Source: a virus
IMG/VR virus record: IMGVR_UViG_3300008114_000252
Coordinates: 1 to 32,813 of that record
DNA: 32,813 bases
Strand: one strand, 5' to 3'
In this document: positions 2,371 to 27,825 of the stretch, piece after piece
How positions within the stretch are numbered: the stretch's first letter is position 1
Layout of the letters: each line of letters begins with the position of its first letter
Position numbers and translations under genes: made by a program
The notes under the pieces: generated by a model
The model's input: only the letters and a program-made list of their open reading frames with translations
The model's database searches: none
What the model was told of the DNA's origin: nothing

Positions 2371-3411
2371 ATGCTTTTCTCTGAGGCCGTTGAGGCTTTC
2401 CTCGCTGCTCGCGCAGCGGAGGGCACTCGACCTAACACCCTGTCCAACTACCGCCGGGATGCCCGGCAGTTCATTAGCGTGGTGGGCGATATCGGCCCCA
2501 TCAAGGGCCGATGGGAGCAGGGTGTGGTCGTGGGTGGGCTGAGCCCAGCCCACGTGGACATGGTCCTGGCTTCGATGGCGGAGCGGGGCTACGCCCCAGG
2601 CACCATCAACATCTTCCAGTCCTCCATGAGGGCGCTCTGTAAATGGCTGAGAGCCCGTGGGATGCTGCTCCCTGACCAGGACCCCCTGGCGGGGCGAAAG
2701 TGGCTCAGTGACCCTCCAAAGGCCAGGAAGAGGCTGTCTGTGGGGCAGACTAAGGCCCTGCTGGAGGCTGATCTGCATCCTCGGGACAAGATGGTTGTGG
2801 CCCTGGGGATCTTCCTGTTCCTGAGGCAGTCAGAAGCCCGCACCATCCGGATATCGGACGTTGACCTGGAAACGAATCGGATCCGGGTCATCATCCACAA
2901 GACCCGTGAAGCCGACATCATGGTCATCCCCATGGAACTGCGCCCCATCCTCAGGGAATGGCTCACCTACTACAGCACCCAAGCCGGACCCCTCCAGCCG
3001 GACTGGTACCTGATCCCCGCCAAGTCCGGGGCCCAGTTCGGGGACCCCGAACCCACCCTCCGACCCACCAAGCAACTCGATCGGGTTGCGGACGTTGTCA
3101 ACGCCGCACTCGACAAGATCGGTTTCCCCACCAAAGACGAAAAAGGGCGCTCGACCCGGGAAGGTATGCATACCCTCCGCAGATCGAGCGCCCTCAATCT
3201 CTATCACGAGCAAGTGGGTCTCGGTGTTGACCGAGCCCTTACCACCGCCCAGTCATTCCTTCATCATCGCTCAGTCACCATGACTGAGCGGTACCTGGGC
3301 CTTGAGTCGGGTCGAGAAACCCGGAACAAGGAGTTCGATAATCGTCCTTTGTTCCCCTCCATGGTGGAGAAGGACAACGTCAGGCATCTACCTGTGCGCC
3401 GTGAGGCATGA
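2371..3411 (+). CDS. int: Tyrosine recombinase / phage integrase
   Basis: A 346-residue protein preceded by GGGAGGT. Residues 1-115 form a helical SAM-like core-binding domain (TLSNYRRDARQF; MERGY-like ERGYAPGTINIFQSSMRAL). The catalytic domain follows with all expected residues: R152 in FLRQSEA, K177 in IHKTRE, H267 and R270 in HTLRRSS, H299 in LHHRSVTMTERY and the nucleophile Y308. It should integrate and, with a partner, excise the phage genome at an attachment site, which suggests a temperate life style or descent from one. No attP core or excisionase could be recognised nearby. The N terminus lacks a long arm-type binding domain, so it may be a simpler recombinase. Its 3' end overlaps the convergent minus-strand gene by 32 bases. 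Confidence 0.93.
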   Translation: MLFSEAVEAFLAARAAEGTRPNTLSNYRRDARQFISVVGDIGPIKGRWEQGVVVGGLSPAHVDMVLASMAERGYAPGTINIFQSSMRALCKWLRARGMLLPDQDPLAGRKWLSDPPKARKRLSVGQTKALLEADLHPRDKMVVALGIFLFLRQSEARTIRISDVDLETNRIRVIIHKTREADIMVIPMELRPILREWLTYYSTQAGPLQPDWYLIPAKSGAQFGDPEPTLRPTKQLDRVADVVNAALDKIGFPTKDEKGRSTREGMHTLRRSSALNLYHEQVGLGVDRALTTAQSFLHHRSVTMTERYLGLESGRETRNKEFDNRPLFPSMVEKDNVRHLPVRREA

Positions 3412-13839: not shown

Positions 13840-14874
13840 TCAGTTCTTGAACTCGTCCTTGATGAGCGTGGCCTCGCCAGCGGAGGCAACAGCCACAACG
13901 CTCTCGGTGTTGTAGATGCCCCATCCGGCGCATCCGTACCATCCGAGACCGAACAGTCGGCCGAACTTATCGGTCGACGGCGTGATCACCGTCGAGAACT
14001 CACGGTTGATGGCCTCAAGAAGGCCATCCTTCCCGAGGAAGAACGTGATGTAGTTACCGTTCGCATCCTTGGGAACCCGAGTGGTCTCGATGAAGCGAAC
14101 ACCCTCGTACGTGCCGATGTCGCCCGAGAAGAGAACGCCGTTAGCGTTCTCCGTGTAGATGTGCGCGGGACGCCAGCCCGCAGCGTCCGTCTCCTCGCGC
14201 AGTTTCACTGCTGCGGCGGGGTGGATGAACGCAACGTACTGGTTGCCCTCGTACGGCATTGCAAGCGCGCTGCGCATGCCTGCAACGATGCGACGAATCG
14301 CAGCGGAGGTGAGGGGACCGGCAGCGGCAGCGGCGTCGCCAGCGGTGACGGCATTGCCAGCACCCGAAGCGACGTAGAACTTGTTAGGCGTGGTGAGCAG
14401 AACGTTCTCCACGATCTTGTCCACCGAGTTCGCCATGTTCTCGCCAACCTGGTACGCCTGCATCGGGTCGATCGACGCCCAGGAGAAGTCCCGCAGGCGA
14501 AGCGTGGTGACCGTAGCATTGCCGTACTCGTTCAGCGTGAAGGTCTTCTTGAGGATACCCTTCAGCGGCTTGTAATCCGGATCGGCGTACTCATCCAGCG
14601 GATTGATGGCAAGGTCAAGCGCATCCCGGTACTGGAACATGTCGAACGTGGAACCGGGGTACGCCAACTGCGCCGGACGCACCGTCGCGAAACGACGGTA
14701 GTACGGCTCAGCCTTCTGCTTGATGGCGATCAACTTGTCGAACGTAGCCTTGATCGCATCAGCAGCAAGAACACCGTCGCCGATACCCGCCTCAGCGCGG
14801 GTACCCGTGACGACGGGTCCGACCAGACTTGAAGCGTCGAACTTGACGTCCGACGTAGTGGCAGTGAATGCCAT
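13840..14874 (-). CDS. Major capsid protein, N4-gp56 family
   Basis: A 344-residue protein right after the scaffold gene. It carries the N4-gp56 pattern: an N-terminal arm, YYRRFATVRPAQLAYPGSTF, then the signature LNEYGNATVTTLRLRDFS, and NSVDKIVENVLL; the second half has YVAFIHPAAAVKLRE and a GVRFIETTRVP strand before the C-terminal GLGWYGCAGWG. These build the HK97 fold of the icosahedral shell. The family is common in short-tailed phages and many prophages. No N-terminal cleavage region or fused protease is evident, which fits assembly on the separate scaffold upstream. A stem-loop follows the gene. Confidence 0.85.
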   Translation of the reverse strand: MAFTATTSDVKFDASSLVGPVVTGTRAEAGIGDGVLAADAIKATFDKLIAIKQKAEPYYRRFATVRPAQLAYPGSTFDMFQYRDALDLAINPLDEYADPDYKPLKGILKKTFTLNEYGNATVTTLRLRDFSWASIDPMQAYQVGENMANSVDKIVENVLLTTPNKFYVASGAGNAVTAGDAAAAAGPLTSAAIRRIVAGMRSALAMPYEGNQYVAFIHPAAAVKLREETDAAGWRPAHIYTENANGVLFSGDIGTYEGVRFIETTRVPKDANGNYITFFLGKDGLLEAINREFSTVITPSTDKFGRLFGLGWYGCAGWGIYNTESVVAVASAGEATLIKDEFKN

Positions 14875-14894: not shown

Positions 14895-15356
14895 CTATTG
14901 GCCCTGCAGCAGGGTGAGCAGTTCGGTCTCCGATGATGCCGACTCGATGCGGCTCAGCAGATCGCTAGACACAGACTGTCCACCTGCCTCAGCGGCGCTC
15001 ATGCGCCGATGGGCCTGGATTGATGAATTGTCAGGAACAGAAGCCTGCTCCTGTTGGCCCTGAACGGGGCCACCGAATACGTCACCGTACTCGCTCAACC
15101 AATCAACAAGATTGTCTTCCGTTGGGTCAAGGTCGGAGGGGATGAACGCTGCAATCTTCGGGTTGTAACCCTTCGACTCCAGCACGGAAGCGACACTACG
15201 CTTCCGCTCACCAGCCTTGAGGCTGCTGTTCTCCTTCTCCAACTCCTTAGCAAACTTCGACATCTCGTCGATCTTTGCCCGCAACCTCTTAACAAGGTCC
15301 GATCCCTGAGCGTCCTCGAAATCGTCCATGTCGTAGATGCTGTCGTTCTGGGCCAT
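14895..15356 (-). CDS. Capsid scaffolding protein
   Basis: Start chosen at the ATG at 15356 because GGGAG stands just before it; the open frame reaches 15407. The 153-residue product is acidic and helical: a charged coiled coil at about residues 18-55 (KRLRAKIDEMSKFAKELEKE), a central AAFIPSDLDP-type segment common in phage scaffolds, a glutamine/serine-rich linker, and a C-terminal helix (DLLSRIESASSETELLTLL) of the sort that binds the capsid subunit. Its size, composition and position just before the major capsid gene fit an internal scaffold removed on maturation. No protease is present next to it. Confidence 0.75.
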   Translation of the reverse strand: MAQNDSIYDMDDFEDAQGSDLVKRLRAKIDEMSKFAKELEKENSSLKAGERKRSVASVLESKGYNPKIAAFIPSDLDPTEDNLVDWLSEYGDVFGGPVQGQQEQASVPDNSSIQAHRRMSAAEAGGQSVSSDLLSRIESASSETELLTLLQGQ

Positions 15357-15484
15357 ACCATCTCCCTTACTTGTCCCCCACATTGGAGGGTCGCCACGGC
15401 GCACCACAACACCGGGGTGTGTTGGGTGGATGTGTGACTGCCGGACTTATCCAAGCAACCGGGGCCGGTGGGTCCGGTGCTGAG

Positions 15485-15563
15485 TGGAGCGGCTGGGAAT
15501 CGAACCCAGGTCCAGTCCGTTGCCATCGTGTGGCTCTACGGTCTGTCGAAACCTTCCCGCCCC
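15485..15563 (-). ncRNA. tmRNA-like tRNA domain lacking the mRNA part (79 nt)
   Basis: On the minus strand, 79 nt fold as the tRNA-like domain of tmRNA. Acceptor: GGGGCGG (15563-15557) pairs fully with CCGCTCC (15492-15486), the third pair being G-U, the alanine identity pair, with A as discriminator. The D-loop region GAAGGTTTCGA (15556-15546) carries the tmRNA signature. The T arm CTGGG-TTCGATT-CCCAG (15509-15493) is preceded by GGAC, as in tmRNA. Where tmRNA has P2 leading into pseudoknots and tag, this has a closed helix: CAG/CTG, an A-A mismatch, CCGT/ACGG, internal loop AGA/A, GCCA/TGGC and loop CACGA. There is no tag frame. CCA is not encoded (ACTCA follows). It sits between two late genes and would be cut from the operon transcript. 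Other options: a degenerate tRNA or host-derived remnant. Confidence 0.75.
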
Positions 15564-15564
15564 A

Positions 15565-15579
15565 CGCGCCTACGGCGCG
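15565..15579 (-). other. GC triloop hairpin adjoining the 5' end of the small RNA
   Basis: CGCGCC (15565-15570) and GGCGCG (15574-15579) form a perfect six-pair stem with a three-base loop. It spans the stop codon of the 140-residue gene and ends one base before the 5' end of the tmRNA-like RNA, so it may mark or aid processing (for example by RNase P) or stall the ribosome-cleared upstream message. Confidence 0.45.
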
Positions 15580-15992
15580 GAGTAGATCGTGGAAGCCACG
15601 CTCACCCAGTCAGCCACCGGAACGTCGGTGGTGAGGGAGAACGAGCCCGTGCCCGAGCCACCGATGATGCCACCAGCAGTGCTGATGGACGAACCGGAAC
15701 CGTTGAGCACGTTGACCTTCATTGAATCGCCAGAGCAAGAAGCGCTGACGTTGGAGTAGATGACGCCCGTGATCTTGTAATCACCGAGCGTGTCGTCCCA
15801 CACCGGGGTGCCAGGATCGATGTCGTATGTCGTGTCGCACACGGTGGGCGTGACCAGCCCGGAAGCGACAGCGCTAGACGAAAGCGTCAGCACCGCTGCA
15901 GTAGCGCCAGCCGCGATTGCAGCGACAGCGCCGACAATCGCACCAAACAGGACCGCCTTGCGGCGAGGAGTTGTGCTTTCGGGTGTTGCCAT
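15570..15992 (-). CDS. Membrane-anchored or secreted hypothetical protein
   Basis: A 140-residue protein starting at an ATG with GGGAGGGAC before it. The N terminus has PRRKAV followed by a long hydrophobic stretch (about residues 13-38, GAIVGAVAAIAAGATAAVL), a signal anchor or signal peptide with possible cleavage after AVA-S. The rest is beta-type, rich in Ser, Gly and Thr, with two cysteines (about residues 52 and 86) that could form a disulfide outside the cell. This layout resembles small surface or pilin-like secreted proteins. In a phage it might alter the infected cell surface (exclusion) or decorate the virion. I recognise no family. The tmRNA-like RNA follows six bases after its stop. 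Confidence 0.65.
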   Translation of the reverse strand: MATPESTTPRRKAVLFGAIVGAVAAIAAGATAAVLTLSSSAVASGLVTPTVCDTTYDIDPGTPVWDDTLGDYKITGVIYSNVSASCSGDSMKVNVLNGSGSSISTAGGIIGGSGTGSFSLTTDVPVADWVSVASTIYSAP

Positions 15993-18026: not shown

Positions 18027-18835
18027 CAGATGCTCACCGGGTCATCAAGGGCAGCCATGAACGCGTCCATGAGGGAAGTCGCAGCCGTGTACTCGGCGTA
18101 ATCCTCACGCGAGGTCACATAGTCCTCAGTGATCTGAGTGGGACTGGTGCCACCAGTGGTGGACACCGTGCTCCCGGAAGAAGTTGTCACAATCGGGTTC
18201 GCCTTCTCTTCCTTGTTCAGAGAAGTCAGGAACTCCTTGAACTCGTCATCAGTTGCTCGCCTGCCCAGCAAGTTAGACATGGCAGCGTTCACCAACTGCT
18301 TCGCCGAATCCGGGTCGGTGAGCCGGTACTGGATGGTGGTGGACGAACCACCACCACCGCCGCCACCACCGCCACCGCCACCGGGGCCACTGGCACCCAT
18401 CGCGGACTGGCCGTCCAGCAGGCCAGTGATCATTGACCAGGCCGTAGGCCCGCTCGGGTTAGAACTCGCCATCTGAACCGCGTCATTAATGAGCGACATC
18501 CCGTACGACATGTTCTTCACCGGGTAGCCGTAGTACGCGGAAGCGGCAGCCATCACTGTCGCCTGCGTGCTAGGGCTATTCATGAAGGCAGACTGCATCG
18601 AGCCAAGGCTGTTAGCCGTGGCACCAGTGTAAGAGGAAGGAATCCCCGAGTAGCCGCCAACGTGATACTGGACTGCGGGGCGTACAGGCATGCGGTTGTA
18701 TGCCTCGTACGCCGGGACGGGAGGATTGTAAGTGTTGTTGCCATTGCCCACCGAGGTGCTCCCGCTGGTGCTCCCGCCGGAGGCACGTGTTGCGGCAGCC
18801 TTCTTCACCGCTTCCCAATCAATTCCACCTGCCAT
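18026..18835 (-). CDS. Low-complexity virion protein with poly-glycine linker
   Basis: A 269-residue protein of Ser/Gly/Tyr-rich character at its N terminus (GGSTSGSTSVGNGNNTYNPP), a run of about twelve glycines in the middle, then a helical domain with TDPDSAKQLVNAAMSNLLGR and ATDDEFKEFLTSLNKEEKAN, a motif series seen in the same phage neighbourhood of related genomes as I recall them. The glycine run is a flexible linker; in DNA it is a ggt/ggc tract near 18347-18386. Its start is next to the end of the giant gene. Likely a component of the internal or tail-tip complex; function unknown. Confidence 0.65.
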   Translation of the reverse strand: MAGGIDWEAVKKAAATRASGGSTSGSTSVGNGNNTYNPPVPAYEAYNRMPVRPAVQYHVGGYSGIPSSYTGATANSLGSMQSAFMNSPSTQATVMAAASAYYGYPVKNMSYGMSLINDAVQMASSNPSGPTAWSMITGLLDGQSAMGASGPGGGGGGGGGGGGSSTTIQYRLTDPDSAKQLVNAAMSNLLGRRATDDEFKEFLTSLNKEEKANPIVTTSSGSTVSTTGGTSPTQITEDYVTSREDYAEYTAATSLMDAFMAALDDPVSI

Positions 18836-21800
18836 TACCGTGGCACCTCCAGATTAGTCTCATGTACAGGTAGGAGCGCATCCCGAGCGAAGTAGCGATC
18901 CCACATGTTCAGCCAAGCCACATCCATGCGCGGGTCCGTGAGCGGGATAACAACCAACTCGACCCAAGAGGTCTTCAAGTCTTCGTTCGATACCGCGTCG
19001 ATCTGGTCGGAACCACCGTTCGCCTTGCGCTCCGCGAGCGCCTCAACGAAAATCTCCCGAGCCGTCATGTAGTCACCCAGGGCCGCAATATGCGGATCGT
19101 TTCCATGCTTTGACATGAACTCCTGGTTGTTCAGGATCGTCAACGCAGCCATCACTTCGTCACGGGCACCGTTGCGATCCTGCTGATCGAAGTCCACACC
19201 CCACGCCGGGTACTCCTTGCGGATGTCCACAATGGTCTGCTGCCTGAGGGCCAGCAGATCCGGATCGGACTGGTACTTATCCGGCTCCAGTCCCCGGTCG
19301 ATTGCCGCAGATGAGATGATCTCCTCCAACTGGTTGAAGGCCCGCCATCCGAGATCCCGCTGCGAGGCATCCTCGGCAGCGGACCCCGACAGGATCGACG
19401 AGTTGGATGGACCGCCACGGAGGAACCTCCCGGACGCGCCCTCCACGGGCGTGTTCAACTGGGCCCGGTAGATGATGTCGCTGTACTCCTCGCCAATCGA
19501 GTAAGAGTTAGTTAGCATGGCAAGCATCTGACCGTTCTCCCCAATGCGGGCAAGGTCGCCAGCGAGCCCCTTGTTCTCCTCGTAAATTTCCATCGCCGAG
19601 GCAGTCGGGGCAACCCCCGACGCCTTCGAACCGGACAGGGACTTCGTGTAACGGAAGAAGTCCTCACCGTACAACTGCAGGAACTCGCTGTCGGCCTGTG
19701 ATACCCCATCGGGATTCACAGAGCCGTCCGGGAGCAGACGGTACTTCTCGTCCAGACGCTTCGACTCGCGAATGTAGAACGCGAACGGTGACTGCGGCAT
19801 CACCGCAGTTGGCATAATCATTGCGGCGCCAGCCCTCAGGCTGTACATGGCTCGCGCAGAGTCGACGGCTTCCTGGAAGTCCGGAGCATCGCCTTGCCGG
19901 TCATTAAGGTCCCAGTTCGTGAGCATCGTGCGGTAGATCTCATCCGCAGTGGCAACGAACTCAGCCGACGACTCGCCACGCTGGCGCGTGAACACGCGCT
20001 TAGCAGCAGCAGGAAGAACAGCCTCCGCCGTCAGGTCGATCAGGTCCTTCTCCTTGGACTGCACCCCGAACGGGAGCAGCCCAGTGGCAACCACATCGCC
20101 AATGGGGATCCCCCATGCTTCCCACTGCTTGATCGTGTCCGCAAGCACCGGCTTGTAGTTCACGATCATCGACAGGGGGACAGCCACGATCGGGTCGACA
20201 CCGGGCAGCCACGGGTACTCGCCAGGAAGGATCACATTCAGTGACCCCTTCGGGATCAAGGACTCGCCAAACAGGTTCCCGACACCGGGGATCTGCTTGG
20301 TGAAAGGCACCATCAGCCAGCCACCACCGGGGGAGAACAGGTGCTTCGGCAGGCTCGTGATAGCCGAGCCGCCAGCCTCCTTGTCGACAGGCTTCATGTC
20401 CTCGTCCAGCGCCCAACCTGACTGGTTGATGCCCTGCCAGAACTGTGCGTACCTCACTGCAGTGATCGGCTTGTTGTAGAACGTCTTCGCCCAGAACTTC
20501 ATGGACGACTCCCACGCGGGGAAGAACGGCACAACGAAACGCAGCGCATACGCTGGCGTAGACAAGCGGTTCACCGTGTACAGGGTTTCCCTGGTTTCGC
20601 GCAGCGCATGAGCATGCGACTGCTTACGCAAGTTGAACATGACGTCATCAGTGAGAGTCACGGCATCATCCATGCCGTCCAACTGGCGAGTCATCTCCTC
20701 CATGAACCTGGCCCGATAGAACGGGTGGCGAACCACATTGTTCTCAGGGATCGTACCGAGACCCTTCATCATCCCGGAAGTGAATCTCTGCCAGGTGTTC
20801 TGCTGATCGACCCAATCCAACTGGGTCAGTTCAGGCATCTCACGCCAAGACAGGTACGCCTGGAGACGGTCAGCGGTAACATCGTTATCGCCAACAAACT
20901 TCTGAAGTTCCTTGTCCGGGATGAACTGGTCCAGTCGAGTTCGGCGTTCCGCAATCGCCTCGTCAACACCTCCCGCAGCAGTGTCCCTGCGGAGCGCGTT
21001 AGTCTCCTGCGAGTTGGTGCGCAGCCACTTGGCGATGTCCTCGTCGGACTCGCCACGCATCATGCGCAACATGATGGCGTCATTGCGGAACAGGGTGTTC
21101 ACATCTTCGGCGAGCGCTGACCAGTACAGGCGCTCACCGGGCTTGTAGGGCACCCGCGCCGAAGTGCGGCGCAAGCCAACAGTCGCATCGTTGGTGTAGC
21201 CCATCAAGTCACGGGCAACCGTCATGTCAGACGAGGAACGTGCCCGTGCCAGATTGCCGTACGCAGTGGTCGGATCGAACGGGTCAGCGATCACAGTACC
21301 CTTGGCTGCAGCGTTCCTGCCATTGTAGGTCTGCCGCTTCTCCTGCCACGCCTGACCCACGCTGCCGGAGTTCCCCATGCGGCGCTTCACCGACTGCTTG
21401 CCCATGCTCTTCAACGCTTCGGAGCGAGCCAGCATGGCGTTATCCAGGTCGGCAACTGCATTGGAGTAACGCCTAGCCTTCTTGCCAAGGTCATCCAGTC
21501 TTGTTTGCAACCCATTATACGTGTCGTTGTTCGACAGGATCTGGTACGCCTGCGCCTTCGCTACGTCGCCACCAGCCAGTTCCATGTAGTCCTGGGTGGC
21601 TTCCTTCGAGGACAGCAGTTCGCTCTTCGTCAAGTAGACAGGCTGATCGTTGGCACCGTTCACGATCAAGTGAGTACGGTTACCGTCCTCCATCCACTGG
21701 ATCAACTTCAGTCTTTCGGTTGTGTCGAACCTGGCTGCACCCTCAGCGGAAGGTGCAGCAGACTTCGTGCGGATATTGAACCCCGCCTGGACGTTGCCAA

Positions 21801-24800
21801 GTTCGCCGGAGTCACCACCCAGTTTAGCCGTGCGAAGATCCATGACCTGCTGGCTGTTGACCGCAGCCTCATCAATGTAGGTAGGCACGGCAGTGTCGGT
21901 GATTGTGCGCAGGTTGCCCTGGGCACTGGAAGGATCATGCAGGTAGATGACGTCGTAACCCTCAGCGGTGTACTTGTTCGGTACGACAATCTTCCCGTAA
22001 CCCAGATCCTTGGCGGCGCGGACAATCCGCTGCACACCAATCCAGTCCGCTACACCCGCAGGACCATCCCCACCCTGAGTGAACGCAGCCAATGTGGAGG
22101 CATCGTACTCGTCGGCGGCATCGTAGCCGCCGATCTCGTTCATCTTCACCTGATCGTCGTACACCTTATTCCATGCACGCTGCACGCGCACGGCAGCGTC
22201 ATACGCAGGCTGCACCTCAGTGACCTCGGCGACATTCGGCGAGATGTACCACACGTGAACGGGATGCTCTTCAACCTCGCCACCGACGCGACCGCCACCC
22301 TTGTGACGGACACCAAGCAGACCCTGGTCGGTGATCGTGTCAACCCACTGCTTCTGCGCCCACGCCAAAGTGGCGGCAGCCTCAGTCTTTGAGTCGGCAG
22401 CCAGAGTGGGGGCGACCTTGCGGACCTCATCAAGGTCCGCGTTCTCCGCCAGGTGAGCCCACAACTGCTTCATCATGAAAGCGTTATCGAACTCGATGAA
22501 CTTGCCTTCGGCAATAAGTTCCTGGTAGCGACGGTTGGCGCGATCATAGAAATCTTCAAGCATTTCGTCAGCGTCGAAACGCTGCGTCAAGCCGGACTTC
22601 TCAAACACGGCCATCAGCAGTTCGTCTTGCGCCCTATGCGCGGCGACGGCCTTACTGTTCCCGAACGCCTCTGCAGGGTCGAAAGGCTCACCGAAAGCGG
22701 GAGCATCAAGGTCAAAGAAATCGTCCGGCGAGGACGGCTCAAGGACATACATGCGTGGGCCAGGAGCAGACGGGTCATCCGCAGCCGTAATGATTGGGCG
22801 ATTGAACAGGTTGCGCTGATCCTCCAGACCCTGCTGCCAGCCATAGACACGCTCACCAACAACATACCCGCCACCAGCAACCTGGGGCGAACCCGAAGAA
22901 TACGGCGCACCCACGCCCATCAGGTTACCCACGTTGTCTTCGTTGTCGTAACGCATCTCATCGAACTGCCCATTAGGCAGTTCTGAACCACCCATGAACA
23001 TCGAAATATCGCCAGGCTCATCAACCACCTGGTAGTCCGAATAATCCATGTCCCACACGAAATGCTTGATCTCTTCGGCCTCATCGATAAGTTCAGCGGC
23101 GCGCTCATCGATGTATGCCTTGTTCGCTGTGAGGATCTGGCGCAACTGGCCCGACTTGATCAGCGCACCAGATTCCTCCAACGCGGCAGCGATCTTAGGA
23201 TCAAGTCCCTTAGCGGACAGGCGCCCGTACACGGCGCGAGCAAGAACATCGTCGTCATTCATCATGACGACCAGGCCACGCAGATCCTTGGCGATAGTTT
23301 CCATGTCATCGGATGCGGTCAGCCCAGAATCGAACAGGTCGTTGTGCAGGGCAGCAGTGGAATCAGCCCACTGCTGCATGTCTGGACGCACCGTCCAGTC
23401 AATGCTCACTACCTTGCCCGCTTCGTCAACCTCCGCCATACCATCAGCGAAGTTCGACATGAGCGCACCATCCAGCGTGCGCGGATCGGTGCCCTCGTAG
23501 AGGGAGAAGCGCCCAGGCTTCTTGAGGGCGACATTGCGGAAGTCGGCGAAGCGCCAAGCCGTATCGTAGTAAGCGGTCTTCAATGGGGTGGCAAGGTCAA
23601 GGGTCTTTCCGTACACGACCGAGCGCACTGCCTTAACAGGCGTGCCCTTAGGCAGCACAACCACCCGGTCGAGGAAACCGCGAGACGCCTTGTCAGGGTT
23701 CTTCGCGATATTGTCGATGAGGGCGGAGACATCGCGGATACGCGAATAGGTTCCGTCCTCATTGGCGTATGCCAAGTAGTTGCCGTCGCTCAGGAACGAC
23801 TTCGCTGCACGCTTACGGTCATACAGCCACAGTCGGGTAGCAGCATCAAGGTTGCCTTCGTTGACGGCAGCCTCGTAGGCTGCCTGCTCGCGAGGCTTAA
23901 GGAAAGAGCCGACCGGCCTATCGAAAGCGTTGTCGAAGGTGTCGCCAACTACTTCCATGGCGTCTTCGTCTTGACGCATGCCGCGCTTAGCGACCTGCTC
24001 CACGGTCATTACGCGACCGTCAGGGCCACGACCGAACCGGGCCATGTCCTCGCCAGTGCGAGAACCCACAGCCATCCAGCCCGCATCGAACTTGCGGGCA
24101 TGGATCGGGTCGAGCACCAGTTGGTCCACGTGTCCCTGCCGGAACACAATGTCCTCGCCGATGCGCCCAGACGCCTCGCCTAGGATCGAGTCCCACTCGG
24201 TTGACTCTCCGACCTTCCATTCGACAGTGCGCTGATACACCACTGCCGCCTCGGCGGCGCGCTTTTCTACCTCAACCTGCCTCTTAGTCTTATCAACGTC
24301 GGCTAGGGTTTCGTCCAACTTCCTCTGCTGGACGGCGCGCGAATTGTAGTCACGCGCCTGCTCGCGGCGAAGAGTCTTCATCGAGGGCTTTCCAGTGGTT
24401 GCACGGGCAACCGCCGAGAAGCCACGCCTTGCAGTGTCAGCGATATTGAAGGCAGTGTTGCCGATGCCGATAGCGGTGTGGCCCACCGCTGCGGCGTAGT
24501 CCGCGTTAGCGAGATCCCCGTAGGCAGCCATGATGCGCAGCCCGCCCTCAGCGAGGTTGCGCTGCGTGTAACCCAAGCGCATCAGAGCGAGAGGGCGCCA
24601 GAACTGATCAAAGTTGCGGAGGAAGGTCTGCACTTGGCGACGGCCAGGGCGAAGAGCGCCCTGCTTGCGCGCCCAATCCTTCCCGGCGCGAGGAATGCCC
24701 TGCCCCCTGAACATCAAGTCGATCATCCCGAAGTCCAGGACAGGGAACGACTCGCCAAGTTCAGACTGCAGAAGATCATCAACGGCGACCAGCATGTCGC

Positions 24801-24810
24801 CGTCCTTCAA
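18835..24810 (-). CDS. Giant internal/ejection virion protein, C-terminal part (frame broken upstream)
   Basis: An open frame of 1,991 codons, nominally from a TTG inside a duplicated segment, with no ribosome site; it is best read as the continuation of the gene upstream. Helical and hydrophobic regions are mixed. One early segment reads LRNFDQFWRPLALMRLGYTQ then RNLAEGGLRIMA, which I connect with very large virion proteins of actinobacteriophages. A membrane-prone zone (about residues 1,440-1,560: LRFVVPFFPAWESSMKFWAK, GGGWLMVPFTKQIPG, VDPIVAVPLSMIVNY) could help form a channel through the cell envelope. I see no RNA-polymerase motifs of the N4 type and no clear enzyme. It probably enters the host with the DNA. 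Joined to the upstream part, the protein would be about 2,700 residues. Confidence 0.7.
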   Translation of the reverse strand: MKDGDMLVAVDDLLQSELGESFPVLDFGMIDLMFRGQGIPRAGKDWARKQGALRPGRRQVQTFLRNFDQFWRPLALMRLGYTQRNLAEGGLRIMAAYGDLANADYAAAVGHTAIGIGNTAFNIADTARRGFSAVARATTGKPSMKTLRREQARDYNSRAVQQRKLDETLADVDKTKRQVEVEKRAAEAAVVYQRTVEWKVGESTEWDSILGEASGRIGEDIVFRQGHVDQLVLDPIHARKFDAGWMAVGSRTGEDMARFGRGPDGRVMTVEQVAKRGMRQDEDAMEVVGDTFDNAFDRPVGSFLKPREQAAYEAAVNEGNLDAATRLWLYDRKRAAKSFLSDGNYLAYANEDGTYSRIRDVSALIDNIAKNPDKASRGFLDRVVVLPKGTPVKAVRSVVYGKTLDLATPLKTAYYDTAWRFADFRNVALKKPGRFSLYEGTDPRTLDGALMSNFADGMAEVDEAGKVVSIDWTVRPDMQQWADSTAALHNDLFDSGLTASDDMETIAKDLRGLVVMMNDDDVLARAVYGRLSAKGLDPKIAAALEESGALIKSGQLRQILTANKAYIDERAAELIDEAEEIKHFVWDMDYSDYQVVDEPGDISMFMGGSELPNGQFDEMRYDNEDNVGNLMGVGAPYSSGSPQVAGGGYVVGERVYGWQQGLEDQRNLFNRPIITAADDPSAPGPRMYVLEPSSPDDFFDLDAPAFGEPFDPAEAFGNSKAVAAHRAQDELLMAVFEKSGLTQRFDADEMLEDFYDRANRRYQELIAEGKFIEFDNAFMMKQLWAHLAENADLDEVRKVAPTLAADSKTEAAATLAWAQKQWVDTITDQGLLGVRHKGGGRVGGEVEEHPVHVWYISPNVAEVTEVQPAYDAAVRVQRAWNKVYDDQVKMNEIGGYDAADEYDASTLAAFTQGGDGPAGVADWIGVQRIVRAAKDLGYGKIVVPNKYTAEGYDVIYLHDPSSAQGNLRTITDTAVPTYIDEAAVNSQQVMDLRTAKLGGDSGELGNVQAGFNIRTKSAAPSAEGAARFDTTERLKLIQWMEDGNRTHLIVNGANDQPVYLTKSELLSSKEATQDYMELAGGDVAKAQAYQILSNNDTYNGLQTRLDDLGKKARRYSNAVADLDNAMLARSEALKSMGKQSVKRRMGNSGSVGQAWQEKRQTYNGRNAAAKGTVIADPFDPTTAYGNLARARSSSDMTVARDLMGYTNDATVGLRRTSARVPYKPGERLYWSALAEDVNTLFRNDAIMLRMMRGESDEDIAKWLRTNSQETNALRRDTAAGGVDEAIAERRTRLDQFIPDKELQKFVGDNDVTADRLQAYLSWREMPELTQLDWVDQQNTWQRFTSGMMKGLGTIPENNVVRHPFYRARFMEEMTRQLDGMDDAVTLTDDVMFNLRKQSHAHALRETRETLYTVNRLSTPAYALRFVVPFFPAWESSMKFWAKTFYNKPITAVRYAQFWQGINQSGWALDEDMKPVDKEAGGSAITSLPKHLFSPGGGWLMVPFTKQIPGVGNLFGESLIPKGSLNVILPGEYPWLPGVDPIVAVPLSMIVNYKPVLADTIKQWEAWGIPIGDVVATGLLPFGVQSKEKDLIDLTAEAVLPAAAKRVFTRQRGESSAEFVATADEIYRTMLTNWDLNDRQGDAPDFQEAVDSARAMYSLRAGAAMIMPTAVMPQSPFAFYIRESKRLDEKYRLLPDGSVNPDGVSQADSEFLQLYGEDFFRYTKSLSGSKASGVAPTASAMEIYEENKGLAGDLARIGENGQMLAMLTNSYSIGEEYSDIIYRAQLNTPVEGASGRFLRGGPSNSSILSGSAAEDASQRDLGWRAFNQLEEIISSAAIDRGLEPDKYQSDPDLLALRQQTIVDIRKEYPAWGVDFDQQDRNGARDEVMAALTILNNQEFMSKHGNDPHIAALGDYMTAREIFVEALAERKANGGSDQIDAVSNEDLKTSWVELVVIPLTDPRMDVAWLNMWDRYFARDALLPVHETNLEVPR

Positions 24811-27507: not shown

Positions 27508-27825
27508 TCACTCCGTGCCCTTCGTGTCTAAAGTTTCGGGTAGACCGCCCAACGACTTCAGCATCGAATCGGCGAAGTCCTTGCGGTCTTGCTCGGCCCA
27601 GTCGTATGCCGACTGGCCCAAAGCCAGCGTAGCCAGGTTGCGGAACAGGTCCGCACTGGCGGCAGCCAACTGCGCAGCGAACACGAACGCTACTGCGCTT
27701 GTGTCTAGGTGAGCCCAGGGAGACGGCGGGACCTCCGTGCTGTCCTCTTCATCGGCGAGTACCGCAGCAATCGCTGCCGCGATCTCATCAGCCGACATCT
27801 CATCGTCTTCGAAGTCCTCGTCCAC
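27508..27825 (-). CDS. Acidic hypothetical head-region protein (105 aa)
   Basis: GTG start at 27825 with AGGGAG five bases before it. The 105-residue product opens with an acidic stretch (DEDFEDDEMSADEI) and alanine-rich helices (AAAIAAVLADEE; AAQLAAASADLFRNLATLAL) and ends QSAYDWAEQDRKDFADSML. It is soluble and helical. It lies between portal and the giant gene, where related phages carry similar acidic small proteins. Possibly a portal-associated or chaperone-like assembly factor; no domain name recognised. Confidence 0.6.
   Translation of the reverse strand: MDEDFEDDEMSADEIAAAIAAVLADEEDSTEVPPSPWAHLDTSAVAFVFAAQLAAASADLFRNLATLALGQSAYDWAEQDRKDFADSMLKSLGGLPETLDTKGTE

Follow-up and report, generated by a model that had tools for sequence, protein, structure and literature searches.

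A stand-alone, tag-less mini-tmRNA in a viral genome and its relatives in diverse phages

The window, by which we mean the whole 32,813-nucleotide stretch of viral DNA analysed here (IMG/VR record IMGVR_UViG_3300008114_000252), encodes a stand-alone tag-less tmRNA, a tRNA-like domain (TLD) in which P2 is capped by a small hairpin. This mini-tmRNA belongs to a broad family that recurs in phage head operons, and both the breadth of the family and its recurrence there had escaped an earlier, sequence-only reading of this DNA. We consider it somewhat better than an even bet (roughly 0.55) that the mini-tmRNA would be charged by the host and bound by host SmpB and would compete with host tmRNA at stalled ribosomes, a mechanism that we infer.

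Results

The sequence-only reading had described a mini-tmRNA at this place, and every feature that it named can be read in the minus-strand sequence. The whole match, defined by the Rfam tmRNA model RF00023 and by homologues, covers 15482-15563 on the minus strand (RNA positions 1-82), with G1 at 15563, the discriminator A at 15485 and an encoded tail CTC. The RNA reads GGGGCGG-GAA-GGTTTCGAC-AGACCGT-AGA-GCCACACGATGGC-A-ACGGACT-GGAC-CTGGG-TTCGATT-CCCAG-CCGCTCC-A-CTC. RF00023 scores 15482-15563 at 56.4 bits (E 9.7e-20; curated cut-off 47), and the match spans both ends of the model (1 and 374) with about 290 central positions absent.

All of the parts lie on the minus strand. The 5' strand of the acceptor, GGGGCGG (15557-15563), forms seven of seven pairs with 15486-15492, which together with the discriminator A make up the 3' strand CCGCTCC-A (15485-15492); the G3-U70 pair claimed for this stem is there, joining 15561 to 15488. 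The tmRNA-type D-loop GGTTTCGAC (15545-15553) is borne out by both the sequence and RF00023, and the GGAC (15510-15513) stands between P2 and the T arm, as had been seen. The T arm, CTGGG-TTCGATT-CCCAG (15493-15509; 5/5 pairs), is canonical, again as first described. What had been called a closed two-part helix in place of the anticodon arm is a capped P2 (15514-15544), a finding that rests on the sequence and on compensatory changes among relatives. Its lower part, AGACCGT/ACGGACT, has six pairs and one A-A mismatch and is followed by an A-rich internal loop and the apical hairpin GCCA-CACGA-TGGC (15522-15534).

The stretch from the D-loop to GGAC is only 31 nt long and is folded as a closed hairpin, without a tag reading frame or resume codon, and pseudoknots PK1-PK4 are missing. 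The D stem and anticodon arm are likewise absent, so that the RNA is not of tRNA type, and ARAGORN makes no call on it. Of the CCA end, the DNA supplies C74 alone (ACTC), and CCA addition must therefore be post-transcriptional. Sequence and the RF00023 match support the proposal of a minimal tmRNA with predicted alanine identity and SmpB-type features and without a tag. Folded alone, the RNA has an optimum of -33.4 kcal/mol (z -2.3) that is not a cloverleaf, the cloverleaf having -31.7 kcal/mol; because of this, the structural case rests on comparison.

Such comparison was provided by scanning 2.9 million viral contigs with a pattern in which TTCGAC, GGAC, the T loop, C71, C72, A73 and C74 were fixed, while acceptor pairing, G3, U70, the T stem and all of P2 were left free. 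At least 120 matches were obtained; two of 120 (L018 and L054), lacking an acceptor stem, were removed, and 101 distinct RNAs remain among the matches listed. Homologues with conserved pairing, which a functional RNA of the proposed kind should have, thus exist in viral contigs as at least 101 distinct RNAs of the same fold. A narrower, complete scan gave 8 matches against 6 among the matches listed, which scales, roughly, to some 160 contigs with the strict form. In GTDB genomes, taken as one per species across 84,980 prokaryote species, there were 55 matches, about 10 of them real mini-tmRNAs; the other 45 or so are mostly full ssrA genes whose 3' ends match by chance. With about 160 viral contigs set against some 10 real copies in 84,980 species, the mini-tmRNA is mainly viral. 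Matches in the mycobacteriophages Milly and TClif (L006, L010) were also rejected, being ssrA 3' ends that lie just before integrase genes and are probably attP.

Among the matches listed, the acceptor is paired at all seven positions in 100 of 101 relatives, the T stem at all five in every one, and G3-U70 is present in 101 of 101, unprompted by the pattern. The closed P2 of these relatives has a mean of 5.4 contiguous pairs, compared with 0.85 in strand-swapped controls. When C, G or T was required at position 73, the scan returned zero matches in the entire viral collection. With the D-loop left free, TTCGAC occurs in 75 of 100 paired matches and a GGnnnnGAC variant in nearly all others; with GGAC left free, it is present in 91 of 108.

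An alignment of 35 members, from which model R1 was built, shows compensatory changes in 15 of 20 pairs with every helix represented, and 97.7% of its cells pair, as against 73.8% after shuffling. In 48 further distinct sequences outside the building of R1, 16 of 20 pairs are compensatory and 96.4% of cells pair, in an alignment that leans towards R1 because it was fitted to it. The compensatory changes looked for in the closed helix affect four of five lower P2 pairs in alignment A2, and likewise in the held-out A5. Across the family, P2 starts as a helix with some 5-9 pairs. This leads to an asymmetric, A-rich internal loop, whose 5' side typically has AAAR ahead of CC, and to a short C-G helix closed by a small loop, often of four bases. 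The capped P2 might bind something else. A micro-tag defined by stop codons near the P2 internal loop was considered and rejected, as the stops are missing in many members and the apical loop has few nucleotides.

The 32.8-kb window record itself has almost no near relative among deposited phages. In phage records, blastn matched all 80 nt in Stenotrophomonas phage Jojan60, Streptomyces phages LuckySocke and GiJojo and Pontimonas phage phiPsal1. The match was partial in Streptomyces phages pSt2308 and Alone3, where the entire RNA is nonetheless there; two more Streptomyces phages, BRock and Shaeky, emerged from a subsequent search. None of the copies in these isolates carries a tmRNA annotation. 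Model R1 scores the isolate copies at 80-94 bits, and a degenerate one in Alone3 at 61; Jojan60, LuckySocke, phiPsal1 and pSt2308 were part of the R1 alignment and GiJojo differs hardly at all from LuckySocke, whereas Shaeky and BRock were left out of R1 building. The RF00023 cut-off is exceeded in 49 of 50 related records. Shaeky's unannotated copy (L194:3001-3082) sits in a tRNA array, flanked by tRNA-Phe and tRNA-Leu. One viral contig of 135953 bases holds two different mini-tmRNAs about 67 kb apart (L042 and L061). In cyanophages S-CAM1 (L196) and S-SSM7 (L200), the T arm and the 3' end of the acceptor resemble tmRNA and the 5' half is poor; these could be degenerate copies or else portions of two-piece tmRNAs.

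In the window, the RNA follows a 140-aa gene of unknown function (15570-15992, minus strand, from the ORF list; no PHROG match), whose stop codon ends 6 nt before G1. Downstream lies a 170-aa gene, called from a GTG (14895-15407, minus strand), the product of which matches phrog_7813, of unknown function, over residues 21-169 (E 3e-30) and, judged by position, could be a scaffold protein. The gene for the major capsid (major head) protein comes next (13840-14874, minus strand; phrog_1357, E 5.7e-45), and the terminase and portal genes are upstream of the RNA in the same orientation. Within this head operon, window positions 18835-24810 encode a 1991-aa protein of unknown function (phrog_10618). 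Head-gene settings total three, the window's included: in one group of relatives, with capsid proteins down to 45% identical, the RNA lies between the head protease and capsid genes, and in another, down to about 53% identity, between the terminase and portal genes. Genes in unannotated contigs are simple longest-ORF calls. Placement in head operons suggests late, abundant synthesis of the RNA.

Other copies are placed differently. At 31 of 134 loci there are tRNAs within 1 kb, and certain copies are antisense to both neighbours. Across all lineages, -10-like boxes lie 6-9 nt before G1 in 9 cases, where about 2.5 are expected from other positions; at L039, L052, L254 and L275, TATAAT/TATACT-like boxes stand 6-7 nt upstream of the first G, as if transcription began at the mature 5' end. 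The surroundings of the window RNA showed no promoter-like site.

Partners were sought in 50 records, comprising 45 viral contigs, many of them fragments, and five isolate phages described as complete. SmpB is absent from all 50, and RF00023 finds neither a full nor a split tmRNA in them and no other tmRNA match in the window. The sequence-only reading had allowed that the tag domain might lie elsewhere as a second RNA piece; RF00023 finds no such piece in the window or the 50 records. Since SmpB and a full or two-piece tmRNA are both missing from the records of these phages, the mini-tmRNA would depend on host SmpB. ARAGORN did call full tmRNAs on L014, L040 and L071, and Rfam shows the mini-tmRNA alone at L014 and L071. 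An RF-1 family release factor or hydrolase occurs in 1 of 40 records. The L027 contig (viral, 115 kb, with a mini-tmRNA) encodes an RF-1 domain protein (G007, 27616-27801; PF00472, 60.9 bits), a possible partner for peptide release.

Discussion

The missing tag, the lack of any phage SmpB in the records searched, the kept alanine identity and the SmpB-type features point to charging and SmpB binding by the host. We propose a model in which the RNA would be transcribed together with the late head genes of the window phage, and RNase P and 3' processing would free an RNA of about 82 nt, to which host enzymes would supply CCA. Recognition of G3-U70 and A73 would allow host AlaRS to charge it, and the charged RNA would be bound by SmpB and EF-Tu-GTP of the host. 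Host tmRNA would then have a competitor, both for SmpB and for the empty A site where ribosomes have stalled. Since this competitor has no resume codon or tag frame, proteins synthesised in late infection would be spared ssrA tagging and proteolysis. We infer each of these steps, from expression and processing through charging and binding to the effect on tagging. That tagging can restrict a phage is indicated by the restoration of lambda growth upon ssrA deletion in a recoded E. coli host (PMC6207430).

Competition appears to be the best-supported outcome, by analogy, because a similar molecule has been reported to compete with tmRNA. The inhibition of tmRNA by a TLD-only-like molecule is reportedly traced to Mao et al. 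2009, RNA Biol 6:355. In the accounts that PMC4131195 (citing Mao et al. 2009) and PMC11915505 give of it, a molecule like the TLD-only tmRNA of mycobacteriophage DS6A strongly inhibits tmRNA in E. coli, perhaps via SmpB titration. The idea of a decoy, as raised in the sequence-only reading, would fit this work as far as these two papers describe it (PMC4131195, PMC11915505). There is a counterpoint: the inhibition, in the account of PMC4131195 citing Mao et al. 2009, is reported for chargeable and non-chargeable forms alike, and a pure SmpB sponge with such charge-independent action would not need a strict G3-U70. The strictness of G3-U70 and A73 argues for a role of charging, so that the ribosome is probably where the RNA acts, with titration not the whole of its effect.

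The same strict charging determinants keep template-free addition of alanine as the main rival. Here, the charged RNA would take the nascent chain at stalled ribosomes and add at least one untemplated alanine, and the peptide would be freed by drop-off, by ArfA/ArfB or by another factor, giving unlabelled, usable proteins. Such active tag-less rescue would explain why alanine identity is retained more strictly than a simple SmpB sponge needs, and an RF-1 domain protein accompanies the RNA on one viral contig of 115 kb. We nevertheless hold it to be unlikely, as 39 of 40 records have no RF-1 family release factor or hydrolase and the effect reported for the similar molecule in E. coli, in what PMC4131195 relates, is inhibition of tmRNA. 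It is tempting to speculate, and we do so only tentatively, that a broad phage RNA family recruits host AlaRS, SmpB and EF-Tu to gain access to stalled ribosomes and that untemplated alanine added there frees late virion proteins from tagging. A different role, in which the fold marks RNase P and RNase Z cuts between head-gene messages and the alanine and SmpB features are leftovers, would suit the repeated occurrence of the RNA between the genes for terminase and portal, or for protease and capsid, and, in the window, the upstream stop codon 6 nt before the RNA. This seems improbable, because the conserved G3-U70, A73, D-loop and GGAC are unneeded for cleavage alone, some copies run antisense to the genes on both sides or follow immediately upon a -10 box, and many stand in tRNA arrays.

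More doubtful again is a decoy aimed at a tmRNA-recognising factor of host defence or repair, whether the SmpB-like domains of CoCoNuT systems or enzymes that cut or repair tmRNA. CoCoNuT type II and III-A helicases do have SmpB-like domains for which tmRNA binding is predicted (PMC11090510), but the mini-tmRNA phages are not linked here to any host with such a system. We give very little credence to an attachment site or a relic of a host ssrA gene; mycobacteriophages bear ssrA 3' ends, likely attP, beside integrase genes, and the window has an integrase gene (2371-3411), but this lies about 12 kb from the RNA, and the 5' half and P2 of the RNA are complete and covarying, whereas att fragments are without these. 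Genes for two-piece tmRNAs are permuted, with the 3' segment ahead of the 5' segment, and their P2 continues into the other piece. The window RNA has the normal order and a closed P2, and there is no second strong full-length RF00023 match in the window or in 50 records, which makes the acceptor half of an ordinary two-piece tmRNA the least probable reading of all, common as two-piece tmRNAs are in marine phages (PMC9004378).

A conserved family in diverse phages amounts to an experiment of nature in which the smallest functional tmRNA can be studied by comparison, and it opens to testing the long-standing question whether phages block bacterial ribosome rescue, or re-use it without a tag, during virion production. 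If it is true, the reading with untemplated alanine would mean that phages run a branch of ribosome rescue that does without a tag. Existing phage genomes could also be re-annotated, as gene callers miss the RNA; ARAGORN is silent in the window and the RNA is unannotated in the isolates checked.

Beyond this family, the RNA has counterparts among known systems. It shares with the tmRNAs of RF00023 the acceptor with G3-U70, the D-loop GGnUUCGAC, the GGAC, the T arm and A73, but is without a tag frame, a resume codon and all pseudoknots, and its P2 is hairpin-capped. Several mini-tmRNA copies stand inside phage tRNA arrays, although, in contrast to phage tRNAs, the window RNA has no D stem or anticodon arm and draws no ARAGORN call. 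In mycobacteriophage Wildcat, tmRNA is the most highly expressed lytic gene (PMC7474061). TLD-only tmRNA has so far been limited, in the cited literature, to one phage and two plastids. The CDS-less tmRNAs of Mallomonadaceae plastids, of about 65 bp (PMC11915505), are likewise a TLD without a tag frame, but they are organellar, shorter and not from phages.

The closest counterpart is the TLD-only tmRNA of mycobacteriophage DS6A (tmID 11587; PMC4131195, PMC11915505), recorded since at least 2014, and the suggestion that no phage RNA of this form had been described is accordingly not upheld. Both RNAs are phage-encoded and comprise little beyond the tRNA-like domain, without a tag; that of DS6A is a single case in PMC4131195 and PMC11915505, likened to the window RNA by description alone. 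The basic kind is already known from DS6A. What is new is how broad and diverse the family is, that its P2 is capped, covaries and contains an A-rich loop, that charging identity is conserved and that the RNA recurs in head operons.
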